Shown: piece by piece, positions 3,569 to 8,752 of the stretch
Layout: each line of letters opens with the position of its first letter
Position numbering within the stretch: position 1 is the stretch's first letter
Assembly (NCBI RefSeq): GCF_014647455.2
Contig: NZ_BMPF01000002.1
Span: forward strand, 558,001-622,000
Length of the DNA stretch: 64,000 nucleotides
Reading direction: 5' to 3'
Source of the DNA: Halarchaeum grantii
GTDB taxonomy: Archaea > Halobacteriota > Halobacteria > Halobacteriales > Halobacteriaceae
Made by a program: the position numbers and the translations under genes
Notes under the pieces: generated by a model
Told to the model about the DNA's origin: nothing
The model's database searches: none
The model's input: only the letters and a program-made list of their open reading frames with translations

Positions 3569-4045
3569 ATGTTCGAGAGTGGCGCGTTCGTCGCCGACGC
3601 CCTCGGCGACGTCACCGACGAACAGGTGCAGCCGAACGGCGTCGACCTCACCCTCGGGAGCGTCGAGGCGCAGACCGAACCGGGGCGCATCACGACCGAC
3701 GGGAAGACCGTCGGCGAGCGCGACGCCGTCGAGACGGTCGAACGCGACGGGCGCGAGTGCTACGCGCTCGACCCGGGATACTACGTCGCGCAGTACGCCG
3801 AGACCGTCCGCGTCCCCGAGGGCCACGTCGGCTTCGTCTACCCGCGTTCGAGCCTGATGCGCAACTCCTGTATGCTCCACACGGCCGTCTGGGACGCCGG
3901 CTACGAGGGGAAGGGCGAGGGGTTACTGGAGGTCGGCCGGCCCATCGAGATCGAGGTTGGGGCGCGCTTCGCACAGTTCGTCCTCGCGGAGGCCGAGCAC
4001 GAGGACGCCTACGACGGGAGCTATCAGGGCGAACGCCTCGACTAG
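3569..4045 (+). CDS. dut: dUTP diphosphatase (dCTP deaminase/dUTPase fold)
   Basis: A 158-residue nucleotide hydrolase that should remove dUTP to keep uracil out of DNA. Family motifs are VQPNGVDLTLGSVEAQTEPG at the N-terminus, VGFVYPRSSLMRNSCMLHTA (substrate-binding loop) and WDAGYEGKGEG, then GARFAQFVLAEAE and the C-terminal GSYQGERLD. The sequence matches haloarchaeal proteins annotated as deoxyuridine triphosphatase. A bifunctional dCTP deaminase activity cannot be excluded from sequence alone. The start is ATG 3569, because upstream sequence is not family-like. The stop overlaps by 3 nt the stop codon of the convergent gene at 4042-4512. Confidence 0.85.
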   Translation: MFESGAFVADALGDVTDEQVQPNGVDLTLGSVEAQTEPGRITTDGKTVGERDAVETVERDGRECYALDPGYYVAQYAETVRVPEGHVGFVYPRSSLMRNSCMLHTAVWDAGYEGKGEGLLEVGRPIEIEVGARFAQFVLAEAEHEDAYDGSYQGERLD

Positions 4046-4512
4046 CGCTCGACGGCGTCGAAGAGGGGGGCGAGCGTGTCGACGAGCGCCGCGTCCGCGT
4101 CGGCCGACACTCGGGCGTACGCGCTCCCGCCCGCGTACGTGTGCCCGCGAGTGAGAACGTGCAGGAGGCGGAACGTCCGCTCGGCGCCGAGGGCGTCCGC
4201 GAAGGCGTCGACGGCGTCGACGTACACGGCGGCGTCGGCGCGGTCGTCGAGCCCCGCACGGAGCGCGGCGGCGAGGTCGGCCGGCCCGGACACCGACTCG
4301 ACGGGCGCGGCGCAGTCGGCCGGGACGTCGGCACCGAGCGTGACGATACGGGGCGGTGAGTCGATACCCGACGGCCCCCACCGCTCGAGGAGCGCCTGCG
4401 GCGTCGTGTCGGCGAGGGCGGCGACGGCGCGCGCGTCGCCTGCGTCCGCCGCGAGCGACGAGAGCGCGTCCTCGGTCGTGCCGACGACGAGCACGCTCCG
4501 GCCCGTGTCCAT
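4042..4512 (-). CDS. Haloarchaeal hypothetical protein (DUF7504-like)
   Basis: A 156-residue soluble acidic protein beginning MDTGRSVLVVGTTEDALSSL. The first strand-and-loop resembles the start of a RecA/RAD55-like fold, but a functional Walker A motif is absent. The central VYVDAVDAFADALG and RTFRLLHVLTRGHTYAGG fit haloarchaeal proteins labelled DUF7504, which I take as degenerate RecA-like or regulator-associated proteins. No transmembrane segment. It is convergent with dut (stops overlapping). The family call is from memory. Confidence 0.6.
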   Translation of the reverse strand: MDTGRSVLVVGTTEDALSSLAADAGDARAVAALADTTPQALLERWGPSGIDSPPRIVTLGADVPADCAAPVESVSGPADLAAALRAGLDDRADAAVYVDAVDAFADALGAERTFRLLHVLTRGHTYAGGSAYARVSADADAALVDTLAPLFDAVER

Positions 4513-4619
4513 ACGTGTCCCACCTATCACTCGTCCATAAATGTGTGGATAATCGACAGGTGTGTGAGAAGGGCGTCGCGGGCGGGTTCGTCCGCCGCGC
4601 CGGGGACCCGGGCGGCCGC

Positions 4620-5315
4620 TCAGACGCGGCGGCGGACGAGCGCGAACACGGCGAGGAGCGCGACGACCGCGGCGACCACCGCACCGCCGACTGCGGTCGT
4701 CAGGAGCGGTATCGAGGTGCCCGTCGACCCGCTCGTCGGGGCGTCGGCGGCGCTCGCGGACGACCCGTCGTCGGCGCGCTCGGAATCGCGGACCGTCACG
4801 GTGCCCGCGTCGGTGGCGGGTTCGACGGCCGCCCCGCCGTCCGCGTCGAACTGGCGGGGCTCGACGGAGAGGTTCACCGCGCCGGGCGCGACGCCGGAGA
4901 GTTCGACGGTGGCGAGGACGACGTCGGACGCGCCGGGCTGGACGCGCTCACGCAGGTCCGCGGCCTCGACGGTCACGCGCCGACCGTCGTCACCGATGGC
5001 GGGGTCGGTCGTCAGCCCGAACGTGTCGGGGTAGCTCGCGTTCGAGATGCGGGCGGCGTCGCCCGCGACGCGAACGTCGAGCGCGAACCCCGCGAGGCCC
5101 TCCGGCGCTTCGGTGAGGACGACGTCGGCCGTCGCCGTGCCGTTCGCCGCGAGTTCGGCGTTCGCGACCCGGACGGTCGGTGTGGCGGACGCGTCGGCGG
5201 CCGCGCCGCTCGGCGACGCGGCGCCGGACGGCCCGACGAGCGCGGCGGCGAGGAGCGCGACGACGAACGCGCCGACGAGTGCGACTCGGACGGGGTCGAG
5301 GTCTGACGAGGGCAT
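4620..5315 (-). CDS. Membrane-anchored cohesin-like surface protein
   Basis: A 231-residue exported protein. Residues about 10-33 form a signal peptide or N-terminal membrane segment. Residues about 45-175 form a beta-rich domain that aligns with the cohesin-like domain of the adjacent PhoX-type protein (shared features include ISNASYPD versus ITSASYPD, LATVELSGV versus LATVTLSGV, and a DGxxx spacer before them). A Ser/Thr/Ala/Asp-rich linker follows at 176-205, then a C-terminal hydrophobic helix ending in ALVRRRV, which would anchor it with the positive residues inside. It is 27 nt downstream of the PhoX-type gene and almost certainly in its operon. A surface receptor role is inferred. Confidence 0.8.
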   Translation of the reverse strand: MPSSDLDPVRVALVGAFVVALLAAALVGPSGAASPSGAAADASATPTVRVANAELAANGTATADVVLTEAPEGLAGFALDVRVAGDAARISNASYPDTFGLTTDPAIGDDGRRVTVEAADLRERVQPGASDVVLATVELSGVAPGAVNLSVEPRQFDADGGAAVEPATDAGTVTVRDSERADDGSSASAADAPTSGSTGTSIPLLTTAVGGAVVAAVVALLAVFALVRRRV

Positions 5316-5342
5316 CTGCGTGGGTGGGGTGTGACTAGGGGC

Positions 5343-8057
5343 TCACTGCTCGACGCCGGCCTCCTCGTAGAGGTGGACGATGTCGGCGTAGTCGAGGCGG
5401 TCGTTCTCGTTGAAGTCGAAGCTGCGCGCGTTCGACGCTACGCTCTTCGATTCCATGCGGTCGAAGAGGAGGACGACGTCGTCGTAGTCGACGCGGCCGT
5501 TGCCGTTGACGTCCTCGTAGCGGCCGTCGCCGTCCGGGTCGGACGGCACCGACCCGCTGCCGGCGACGCTGGCGGGGCCGGTGACCGTGACGCCCGAGCG
5601 GGTTTCGACGGCGACGTTCTGCCCCTCGTCGTCGTCGAGGGCGGCGCTCACGTCGAGGTCGGCCGCGCCCCCGCCGACGCCGGAGAGCGTGACCGTCGCG
5701 AGCGTGAACTCGACGCCGTCGGCCTGCATCGCCTCGTTCACGTCCGCGAACTCGAAGGCGGCGGTCGAGCCGTCCTCGGCGATGGACGGCGGCTGGTTGA
5801 GGCCGGCCGCGTCGGGGTAGCTCGCGCTCGTGATCTCGGCGACATCGGTGTCGGAGACGCCCACCGAGAACGTCCCGCCGGAGAGGCCGTCCGGGATGTG
5901 CTTCGCGCGCACCTCGACGGTGACCGACTCGCCCTGTCCGACGGCGGCGGAGCCGACGGCGACCGTCGGGTTCGGCTGGTAGACCCAGAGGCAGTCGTTC
6001 GGGTAGGAGCGCCGGGACTCCGCGAACCCGTCCTCACAGCAGAGGACGCGGCCGTCGTCCATCGCGTAGACGTTGTCGATGTTCCGAACGGCGTCGTTCG
6101 CGGCCTGCGGGCCGTCCGTGAAGTCCGGCCCGACGACGACGGGTTCGAGCGTCGAGACGTCGTAGTTCGCGTCGAGTTCCGCGCGGTAGACGACGCCGCC
6201 GTCGACGCGGTCCATCTGGAGGTCGCCCGTGTCGTCGGCCATGTCGTCGTTGAACTCGGAGATGCCGAAGTAAACGTAGTCGCCGGGGCCGGCGTCGTCG
6301 ACGCTGTCGATGCCCTCGGCCTTGTTGAACTCGATGGACGCGCCGATCTCCTTCGCGGCGGCGCGCGTCTCGAGGAACGGGACGCGGCGCAGGCCCTCGT
6401 CGACGCCGTCGTGGCCGCGCGCCTCGTACTGGCGCGCCCACTCGACGATCTCCTCGTTCGTGATGTAGTTCTGGTTGCCGTTCTCGATGACCGCCTTGTC
6501 GGCCTCCTCGATGGCCGTCGCGCGGTCCTCCGTCCAGTCGGTCTCCGCGTGCGTCTCGAGGTAGTCCGCCTGCGTGACGTCGTCGTACTCGGCGATCCAC
6601 GACTCGATCTCCGCGTTCGAGGCGTGCCCGAGCGGCACCCACTCGACGTCGAGGGCGACGTCCGCCGGGGACGCGCGCGTGCCGGAGTCGGCGGCGCTCG
6701 CGGCGTCGTTCGTGACCTTCGGCGCGTAGAGCGTGCCCGCGAGCTCCATCGGGTCGTCGTAGCTCGGAATCTCCTCGTCCGCGACGAACTTGTAGATGCC
6801 CTTGCTGTCGCCGTCGGACGCGCCGTAGACCGTCCGCAGGTCGTTCTGGAAGTTCGGCGACTCCCACGCCGCCCGCCCGAGGACGTAGTACTTGATGGGC
6901 TCGGGCGTCTCGGCGTGCGGCTCGCGGTAGTCGACGTGGTAGCCGTAGCGGTACGGGTTCGGGTACGCCTCGTCCGTGATGGGCGTGCCCGTGTTCTTCG
7001 CGTCCTCCACGACCTCGGTCTTCGCGTACGCGTCCGCCGTCGAGGTGTCGACCCCGGTCGCGTCACGCGGGAACGCACCGAGCTGGTAGGCGAGGAGTTC
7101 GACGCCCGCGAGCGCCCAGTTGCCCTGCACGGACCACGACTCGTCGCCGTAGTACTCGTCGACCGCGCTCTGGATGCCCGTGGGGTTCGGGCGGTTCCAG
7201 AACTGACAGCCGCCGACGAGCCCCTTCCCGGTGCCGGCCTCGACGATGTCGCCCACCGTCGCCTTGTAGGAGACGCGCGGGTGGGCGTAGTTCTCCTCCG
7301 AGGAGACCATCGTGTCCCACGGCGTGCGGTCGCCGTAGCAGTTGATCATCGTGCCCCCGAGGTCGCGCAGTTCCTCGGTGTTCGCCATGTTGATGGCGTT
7401 CTCGAGGTCGGCCTCCCACTCGCCGGTCGCCGCGTTCTTGCTGAGCGGGATGCGCGAGACGTTCCCCGGCGTGGACTCGAAGTTCGTAAAGAGGTGGCCC
7501 TCCGTTCCCGCCTCGTTCGACGCGATGAACTGGTTGCAGTCAGGCGTGTAGCCCGCCTCCGAGTAGCGCGTCCCCGGGAACTTGTCGATGGGCTCGCCGT
7601 CCGGCGTCTCCGGGACGCCGAGTTGCTCGCTCGCGCCGTTGATCGGTTCCTCCCGCCGGGCGAGCATGACGTAATCGCCGTCGGCGGTCCGCACGGAGTG
7701 CTGTTCGTCCTGCGTCTCGGGGGCGGAGAGCTCCTCGAAGTCGTCGTTGCTCCCGTTCATCGCGAAGGAGAAGCCCTTCACGTAGCCGATGCCCGCGCGG
7801 TCGTAGGGCGCGACGTTGTCGGTGCTCGGGTGCTGGAGGCTGTAGAGGAGCGTCCCGTCGTCGAAGACGAACGGGCCGGTGACCTCCGCGCCGAACGCCG
7901 TGTTCGAGAAGCGCTTGAGCGACCCCTTGACGCTCGGCGCGCCCGGCGTGTCCGATTCCTCGACGTCCGCGCTCGCGATCCCACTGCCGGCCACGCTCGC
8001 GCCGAGTGCGGCGGCGACTGAACTCGCCATCAGTTGTCGACGGCTGATATCGACCAT
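5343..8057 (-). CDS. Secreted PhoX-type (DUF839) protein with cohesin-like and dockerin domains
   Basis: A 904-residue exported protein. A Tat signal is evident at the start (ISRRQLMASS, then a hydrophobic run to about residue 30). Residues about 45-690 match the PhoX/DUF839 family, calcium- and iron-dependent phosphatases, with landmarks GTMINCYGDRTPWDTMVSSE and EENYAHPR. Residues 698-828 form a cohesin-like beta domain, and 840-904 carry two calcium-loop repeats (DVNGNGRVDYDD and DFNENDRLDYAD), which is the layout of a type I dockerin. The start is ATG 8057. Seven upstream in-frame codons are less likely. Phosphatase activity is inferred from the family. The dockerin suggests binding to a cohesin, perhaps the product of the next gene. 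Confidence 0.85.
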   Translation of the reverse strand: MVDISRRQLMASSVAAALGASVAGSGIASADVEESDTPGAPSVKGSLKRFSNTAFGAEVTGPFVFDDGTLLYSLQHPSTDNVAPYDRAGIGYVKGFSFAMNGSNDDFEELSAPETQDEQHSVRTADGDYVMLARREEPINGASEQLGVPETPDGEPIDKFPGTRYSEAGYTPDCNQFIASNEAGTEGHLFTNFESTPGNVSRIPLSKNAATGEWEADLENAINMANTEELRDLGGTMINCYGDRTPWDTMVSSEENYAHPRVSYKATVGDIVEAGTGKGLVGGCQFWNRPNPTGIQSAVDEYYGDESWSVQGNWALAGVELLAYQLGAFPRDATGVDTSTADAYAKTEVVEDAKNTGTPITDEAYPNPYRYGYHVDYREPHAETPEPIKYYVLGRAAWESPNFQNDLRTVYGASDGDSKGIYKFVADEEIPSYDDPMELAGTLYAPKVTNDAASAADSGTRASPADVALDVEWVPLGHASNAEIESWIAEYDDVTQADYLETHAETDWTEDRATAIEEADKAVIENGNQNYITNEEIVEWARQYEARGHDGVDEGLRRVPFLETRAAAKEIGASIEFNKAEGIDSVDDAGPGDYVYFGISEFNDDMADDTGDLQMDRVDGGVVYRAELDANYDVSTLEPVVVGPDFTDGPQAANDAVRNIDNVYAMDDGRVLCCEDGFAESRRSYPNDCLWVYQPNPTVAVGSAAVGQGESVTVEVRAKHIPDGLSGGTFSVGVSDTDVAEITSASYPDAAGLNQPPSIAEDGSTAAFEFADVNEAMQADGVEFTLATVTLSGVGGGAADLDVSAALDDDEGQNVAVETRSGVTVTGPASVAGSGSVPSDPDGDGRYEDVNGNGRVDYDDVVLLFDRMESKSVASNARSFDFNENDRLDYADIVHLYEEAGVEQ

Positions 8058-8326: not shown

Positions 8327-8752
8327 TCAGGCGACGCCTTCGGCCTCGGCGCCCTCGCGGATGTCGGCCGCCCGGCCCTCGACCCACTCGACGTAGTCGT
8401 GGACGCGGTAGGGCTTCCGACCGAAGAAGGAGGCGACCCACTCGACGTCGTCGTACTGCGTCAGGAGGTACGCGGCCAGCACCGCCCGTCCGGCGCCGAT
8501 GACCTCCAGCGGGACGCCGCGCTCCCCGGTCGCCGCCTCCTCGAAGCCGTTCGTGCAGAAGTAGACGTCCGCGTACAGTTCGGCCGTCTCCGGGTCCGCG
8601 AACGTCCGGCCCCGATGCTCGGGCGCCTCGAAGCGATACTGCGGTCCGTCGGCGTCCGCGCCCGCCCCACACTCGACGATGCGCACGCCGAGGATGTACT
8701 CTCGGTGAATCGACTCCTCCGACCCGCGTCGTCCGTGGTCTGGTTTCGACAT
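8327..8752 (-). CDS. Haloarchaeal hypothetical protein, 141 aa
   Basis: I do not recognise a named family. The protein is soluble and acidic, with the core reading YRFEAPEHRGRTFADPETAE, LYADVYFCTNGFEEAATGERG and YDDVEWVASFFGRKPYRVHDYVEWVEG. One cysteine is present in the middle. Third-position G/C bias and the well-formed C-terminal half support a real gene. The start ATG 8752 (MSKPDHGRRG) is preceded by AT-rich promoter-like sequence at 8812-8842. The gene is isolated: more than 260 bp of non-coding DNA lies on each side. Confidence 0.65.
   Translation of the reverse strand: MSKPDHGRRGSEESIHREYILGVRIVECGAGADADGPQYRFEAPEHRGRTFADPETAELYADVYFCTNGFEEAATGERGVPLEVIGAGRAVLAAYLLTQYDDVEWVASFFGRKPYRVHDYVEWVEGRAADIREGAEAEGVA

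Follow-up and report, generated by a model that had tools for sequence, protein, structure and literature searches.

The closest described counterpart of the locus analysed here is found in Archaeoglobus fulgidus, where the dockerin of ORF2375 binds the cohesin of ORF2376 strongly and specifically (PMC9705933). Further archaeal versions of the cohesin-dockerin pair have been verified by others, as cited in PMC9012536. The dockerin and cohesin proteins of ANME archaea described in that paper are likewise non-cellulosomal and are borne on secreted proteins, their common dockerin cargos being ABC substrate-binding proteins and multi-cohesin proteins being present, unlike what we describe below. 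For haloarchaea, recent papers describe dockerins as substrate-binding (PMC10963439, PMC13260240) and make no mention of a haloarchaeal cohesin, probably because the Pfam cohesin model misses the family. A conserved partner cohesin would give haloarchaeal dockerins a job.

The window, a stretch of 64,000 nucleotides from Halarchaeum grantii, contains an arrangement resembling the consecutive A. fulgidus ORFs, with a dockerin on one gene product and a cohesin on the next. The upstream gene encodes a putative PhoX-type phosphatase that ends in a predicted cohesin domain (Coh1) and a dockerin, and the downstream gene encodes a predicted membrane-anchored cohesin protein, which we refer to as Coh-TM herein. 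The coordinates given for both ORFs by the initial annotation, 8057-5343 and 5315-4620 on the minus strand, proved to be exact. The features are as follows.

8327..8719, minus strand: conserved 130-aa protein without a Pfam family, same-strand neighbour of PhoX
5343..8057, minus strand: putative PhoX-type phosphatase gene, 904 aa, with Tat signal, PhoX domain, Coh1 and dockerin
7968..8057, minus strand: Tat signal region (MVDISRRQLMAS...), from the sequence and a Pfam TAT_signal match with E 0.11
5988..7967, minus strand: PhoX catalytic domain, residues 31-690, with the NC...PW.T....EEN motif kept
5604..5972, minus strand: Coh1, predicted cohesin domain of PhoX, residues 696-818, from identity to the Coh-TM cohesin and the predicted fold
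5346..5546, minus strand: dockerin domain of PhoX, residues 838-904, from Pfam and the calcium loops
5478..5513, minus strand: dockerin calcium loop 1, DVNGNGRVDYDD, residues 849-860, canonical
5484..5486, minus strand: Tyr858, putative repeat-1 recognition site, Tyr in 68/68 dockerins with Coh-TM and 1/10 without
5382..5417, minus strand: dockerin calcium loop 2, DFNENDRLDYAD, residues 881-892, canonical
4620..5315, minus strand: Coh-TM gene, 231 aa, with signal peptide, a single cohesin and a membrane helix at the C-terminus followed by RRRV
4821..5183, minus strand: predicted Coh-TM cohesin domain, residues 45-165, from identity to Coh1 and the predicted fold
4632..4700, minus strand: hydrophobic anchor at the C-terminus of Coh-TM (residues 206-228), with a hydropathy of 2.8 over 19 residues

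The PhoX domain matches Pfam PF05787 with an E-value of 4e-19 and 69.5 bits, above the curated cut-off of 24. The protein shares with PhoX alkaline phosphatases of the 3zwu/4amf type its PhoX domain, its Cys motif and its Tat signal; it is very divergent from the solved PhoX chains (profile E 4.5e-12), carries inserts, and has a C-terminal Coh-Doc region that is absent from those chains. Cys240, invariant in 32 relatives, corresponds in the alignment to residue 179 of the 3zwu chain in the PDB, which we take to be the iron ligand. Judged by its sequence, the product of 8057-5343 (minus strand) is a Tat-exported PhoX-type protein and a putative phosphatase, in keeping with the Tat export and Cys-bound iron described for PhoX (PMC4223295).

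At its C-terminus the dockerin was slightly below the cut-off in a protein scan (PF00404, E 0.0018) and above it in a genome scan with the same model (24.6 bits). Both calcium loops are canonical and are conserved in 26 diverse dockerins, a conservation on which the initial annotation had made its docking proposal depend. Coh1 gave a sub-threshold Pfam cohesin match (E 0.038), and its predicted model adopts a cohesin fold (Z 15.9), with nearly all of the top-ranked fold matches being cohesins. The ending first described for this protein, a cohesin-like domain and a two-loop dockerin, is borne out by these matches.

The Coh-TM ATG lies 27 nt beyond the PhoX stop, on the same strand. No match was found when the Coh-TM protein was scanned with Pfam; its cohesin region is 41% identical to Coh1 over 108 aa (E 3e-17). 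AlphaFold models of cohesins built from the window DNA and from the DNA of relatives gave confident beta-sandwiches, and a Foldseek search with the Coh-TM model (E 1e-6) listed solved cohesins first. By VIA, the Z-scores were 14.1 for 5nrm and 13.9 for the A. fulgidus cohesin 2xdh, a top structural match, and the top matches were nearly all cohesins. A profile search of PDB sequences that started from the cohesin alignment returned no cohesin, and the fold search alone found them. On these models, Coh-TM and Coh1 are cohesin folds. A hydrophobic C-terminal helix is present in 44 of 47 Coh-TM ORFs. The window protein has a plain helix and RRRV, with no PGF-CTERM signal matched in the scan, and two Halorientalis orthologs score above the curated cut-off for PGF-CTERM. 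The downstream gene thus fits its first description as a C-terminally anchored protein with a cohesin domain related to that of PhoX.

A scan of the whole Halarchaeum genome revealed one dockerin, that of PhoX, and two cohesins, Coh1 and Coh-TM; the check for other dockerin proteins proposed at the outset therefore yielded none besides PhoX. Like the type I cellulosome, the window pair has duplicated calcium loops, a predicted cohesin fold and a recognition site at loop position 10. Unlike the cellulosome, the window genome has no scaffoldin with several cohesins, only two single-cohesin proteins, and no carbohydrate-active dockerin enzymes: there is one enzyme and one anchor. Among the marks of an archaeal non-cellulosomal pair, two canonical loops, a cohesin-fold partner and linked, co-inherited genes are found here, and calcium-dependent binding is predicted. 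The haloarchaeal pair differs from that of A. fulgidus in that the dockerin protein belongs to an identified enzyme family, PhoX, and is predicted to be Tat-exported, and in that its partner, conserved across many genera, appears to be a dedicated membrane anchor. In an Archaeoglobaceae MAG, too, a cohesin gene comes after one that encodes a Coh-Doc protein. The initial annotation had held that a phosphatase version in a haloarchaeon would be notable. Archaeal non-cellulosomal pairs as such were already known; new in the literature searched are the phosphatase cargo in a haloarchaeon, the Pfam-invisible anchored cohesin beside its cargo, the haloarchaeal breadth and the residue evidence.

PhoX loci were gathered across the haloarchaeal class and annotated with profiles built in this analysis. 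Coh-TM lies directly downstream of 46/53 PhoX-Coh-Doc genes, and of a further two in which a second PhoX-Coh-Doc gene comes first (48/53 with tandem copies), leaving 5/53 without a following Coh-TM. PhoX genes lacking a dockerin served as a natural negative control, and Coh-TM followed 0/22 of these. The arrangement is not due to chance, as dozens of haloarchaea have the same pair in their genomes. A single clade holds the PhoX-borne cohesins (57 rows, support 99/98), and a second one the PhoX-linked Coh-TM cohesins (46 rows, support 100/93), which argues that the two lineages are co-inherited; a single origin of the two-cohesin arrangement followed by co-inheritance is most likely. Over both locus sets, ten PhoX-Coh-Doc genes have no neighbouring Coh-TM, and most of the corresponding genomes whose cohesins were counted have none beyond those borne on PhoX, the exception being one genome with four cohesins. 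The dockerin can thus be retained in the absence of the anchor.

Each repeat of the Clostridium thermocellum dockerins touches the cohesin through a Ser-Thr pair at positions 11-12 (PMC4728124). Ser11 of that dockerin corresponds to loop position 10, which is occupied here by Tyr858 in repeat 1. Taking dockerins with no adjacent Coh-TM gene as being without Coh-TM, we found Tyr at 858 in all dockerins adjoining Coh-TM and in 0/5 without it in the first locus set, and in 19/19 versus 1/5 among loci taken independently from GTDB. The combined counts, 68/68 versus 1/10, come from related sequences and are not independent; they are the strongest of all Coh1-Doc columns, Tyr858 having been spotted in part of the data before all columns were scanned. 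Halogranum, which keeps Tyr at 858 without Coh-TM, is a real exception. Naive Fisher tests (p about 1e-10) were rejected as inflated by kinship, and a tree-length rate test was used instead. The PhoX-domain tree implies only about three losses of Coh-TM, and two of three independent pairs agree (sign test p 0.5, a test made powerless by so few losses). By tree length, Tyr858 did not change on the 12.2 units that have Coh-TM (93% of the tree length) and changed at least 6 times, to D, H, R and G, on the 0.97 units that lack it (7%), ranking first of all columns (p 1.6e-7, uncorrected for the 205 columns). The top seven columns also include N853, N851 and R855 of repeat 1. Repeat 1 is more relaxed than repeat 2 (31/126 versus 18/142 changes, p 0.017), and even in the absence of Coh-TM repeat 2 has Tyr/Phe at its position 10. 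Two sequences in the clade without Coh-TM have an Asp-Glu pair at the recognition site, and the same change served to knock out a binding mode in PMC4728124. These substitution patterns support a dockerin orientation in which repeat 1 would face Coh-TM.

We propose, with a probability of about 0.7, that the two genes form a minimal system dedicated to anchoring an extracellular phosphatase at the surface by cohesin and dockerin. The predicted docking of the PhoX dockerin on the anchored cohesin, put forward by the initial annotation, gains support from the linkage of the genes and its negative control, the single clades of both cohesin lineages, the constraint on repeat-1 residues only where the anchor gene exists, the PGF-CTERM sorting signals on orthologous anchors, and the analogy with the adjacent A. 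fulgidus pair of proven binding. Structure prediction, the check suggested at the time, bore out the cohesin fold but not the complex: a single chain comprising the dockerin, the stop read as Gly, the 9-residue gap and Coh-TM gave no docked complex (pTM 0.56), the cohesin being sound and the dockerin itself poorly modelled (pLDDT 55-72), a result that neither supports nor refutes docking. From what is known of the family, PhoX would fold, together with its metal cofactor, inside the cell before Tat export and, if exported without an anchor, could diffuse away. Coh-TM would leave the cytoplasm on its own through its signal peptide, and its C-terminal helix would hold it in the membrane with the cohesin facing outwards. 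The calcium-loaded dockerin could then dock on this cohesin, with repeat 1 and Tyr858 as the main contact face, while Coh1 may be a stabilising module packed beside the dockerin or a second docking site. Plug and socket would probably hold the enzyme on the cell surface, and phosphate would be set free beside the cell. Sequence or structure prediction shows the domain make-up, the two unlike export signals, the anchor and the gene linkage; from these we infer calcium-dependent binding, enzyme retention at the surface and a gain in phosphate supply. The product of a cell-bound phosphatase would stay near its producer, which is important where phosphate is scarce; the predicted calcium-dependent pair should function in saturated salt, and the plug-and-socket principle would extend from plant-fibre digestion to phosphorus scavenging.

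The same domains could also be read as a rigid C-terminal module packed in cis, similar to an X-module, in which Coh1 and the dockerin serve PhoX stability or dimerisation and Coh-TM is a minor or different partner. AlphaFold modelled the Coh1-Doc unit confidently (pLDDT 88, pTM 0.72) and better than the dockerin-linker-Coh2 construct, so cis packing is possible, with docking still compatible; the comparison of pTM values is unfair, however, since the constructs differ in linker length and alignment. Every PhoX dockerin protein, like several of the other cargos, has Coh1 beside the dockerin; the Coh1-Doc unit is also kept by lineages that lack Coh-TM, and Coh1 has long branches where the dockerin is gone (the L059 copy and L098). 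As such a module leaves the 46/53 versus 0/22 linkage of Coh-TM unexplained, and gives no account of why Tyr858 varies exactly where Coh-TM is missing, we consider it unlikely.

Because each enzyme carries both halves of the pair, the dockerin of one PhoX might instead bind Coh1 of the next, with Coh-TM merely starting the chain. The single Coh-TM common to tandem PhoX-Coh-Doc copies at two loci would suit such a chain, as would the Tyr/Phe that repeat 2 retains, but the Coh1 and Coh-TM cohesins fall in separate, strongly diverged clades, so that equal specificity is not given, and we regard chain formation as improbable. Still less credible, and in our estimate very improbable, is that the haloarchaeal dockerin binds a substrate such as polysaccharide or the envelope, as in the two descriptions cited above, and that the cohesin-like domains are an unrelated beta-sandwich decoration. 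Consistent with that reading, dockerin proteins occur in genomes without a detected cohesin (19/173 haloarchaeal dockerin genomes). Against it, solved cohesins score well ahead of other folds as matches to both domains, and among 391 genomes cohesin and dockerin occur together in 154 and only one of them in 14 and 19, by models trained on linked loci. An independent Pfam dockerin model also shows co-occurrence in these genomes (both in 129, one only in 39 and 43; odds ratio 14).

Dedicated anchoring of PhoX may be part of a wider arrangement. The best GTDB matches to Coh-Doc include PhoD (E down to 1e-112), GDPD, 5'-nucleotidase, SNase and choice-of-anchor-I proteins, and the tail on PhoD, GDPD and 5'-nucleotidase suggests a surface complex for phosphorus scavenging. 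None of the PhoD loci with Coh-Doc that were seen has its own Coh-TM, and the dockerins there keep Tyr at the repeat-1 site; 7/8 PhoD proteins with Coh-Doc occur in a genome with the PhoX/Coh-TM pair, versus 1/7 of PhoD proteins without Coh-Doc (p 0.01, in a small sample with kinship uncontrolled). This points to a shared anchor for several phosphorus-releasing enzymes. We tentatively envisage a 'phosphatasome', the odds of which we put somewhat below even, in which PhoX, PhoD, GDPD, 5'-nucleotidase and possibly SNase proteins share the membrane cohesin of the PhoX operon. One anchor would then gather different phosphorus-scavenging activities on one cell surface, and the window, in whose own genome PhoX is the only Coh-Doc cargo, would represent the minimal one-enzyme form.

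Regarding the surroundings of the pair, the PhoX and Coh-TM genes share a reading frame in the window and at 13 other PhoX loci; read-through of the stop codon to fuse the two proteins was considered, but the stops are of three kinds and nothing else points to it, and the shared frame was treated as chance. Phosphate-transport genes were rejected as general neighbours, being found in one lineage only. The 130-aa protein encoded at 8327..8719 adjoins PhoX on the same strand in 69/70 PhoX loci.

Two further genes flank the pair formed by the secreted PhoX-type phosphatase gene and the gene for a membrane-anchored single cohesin (Coh-TM):

Window 8327-8719, minus strand: 130-aa protein with no Pfam family, same-strand neighbour of PhoX
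Window 4042-4530, minus strand: DUF7504 protein, adjoining Coh-TM

Of the 70 PhoX loci from haloarchaea, 69 carry the gene for the 130-aa protein beside PhoX on the same strand, whether a dockerin is present or absent, and the protein retains ~60% identity across the order; we regard it as a candidate PhoX maturation or metal-insertion factor. For the DUF7504 protein, no link to the PhoX/Coh-TM pair was seen. At locus L065 (genome G266), where the cohesin-dockerin-tailed PhoX gene occurs without Coh-TM, a small conserved protein of the 130-aa type and a PstS-like phosphate-binding protein lie 3' of it (about 503-1573).

The cohesin-dockerin tail found on PhoX was also present on PhoD phosphatases (L164, L166, L168, L171, L173 and L174; L198, L201-L203, L205-L207, L213 and L215), none of which had its own Coh-TM at these loci. 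In the uncultured archaeon A07HB70 (L156:3155-4627, plus strand), the tail is carried by a glycerophosphodiesterase and followed by a cohesin gene. A diverged second line of dockerin/cohesin gene pairs (L046, L050, L047, L055, L053 and L209-L212), divergently oriented in some cases, has BNR-like, LRR-adjacent or unknown cargo. Orphan dockerin genes occur in G022 (L054:4333-6084, plus strand; subtilase cargo), G015 and G025, with no cohesin detectable in these three genomes.

One scaffoldin-like haloarchaeal protein (L048:4626-6275, plus strand, and L049; genome G081) combines three cohesins with a dockerin. Its gene is clustered with at least six dockerin enzymes, including GSDH, malectin, ThuA, 3-keto-disaccharide hydrolase and multicopper oxidase proteins, and this cluster is predicted to encode a multi-enzyme complex outside the plant-fibre cellulosomes. 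Haladaptatus sp. DYF46 encodes a second protein of this three-cohesin plus dockerin architecture (L183:2876-4582, plus strand), its gene adjoining that of a malectin/xylose-isomerase-like dockerin enzyme.
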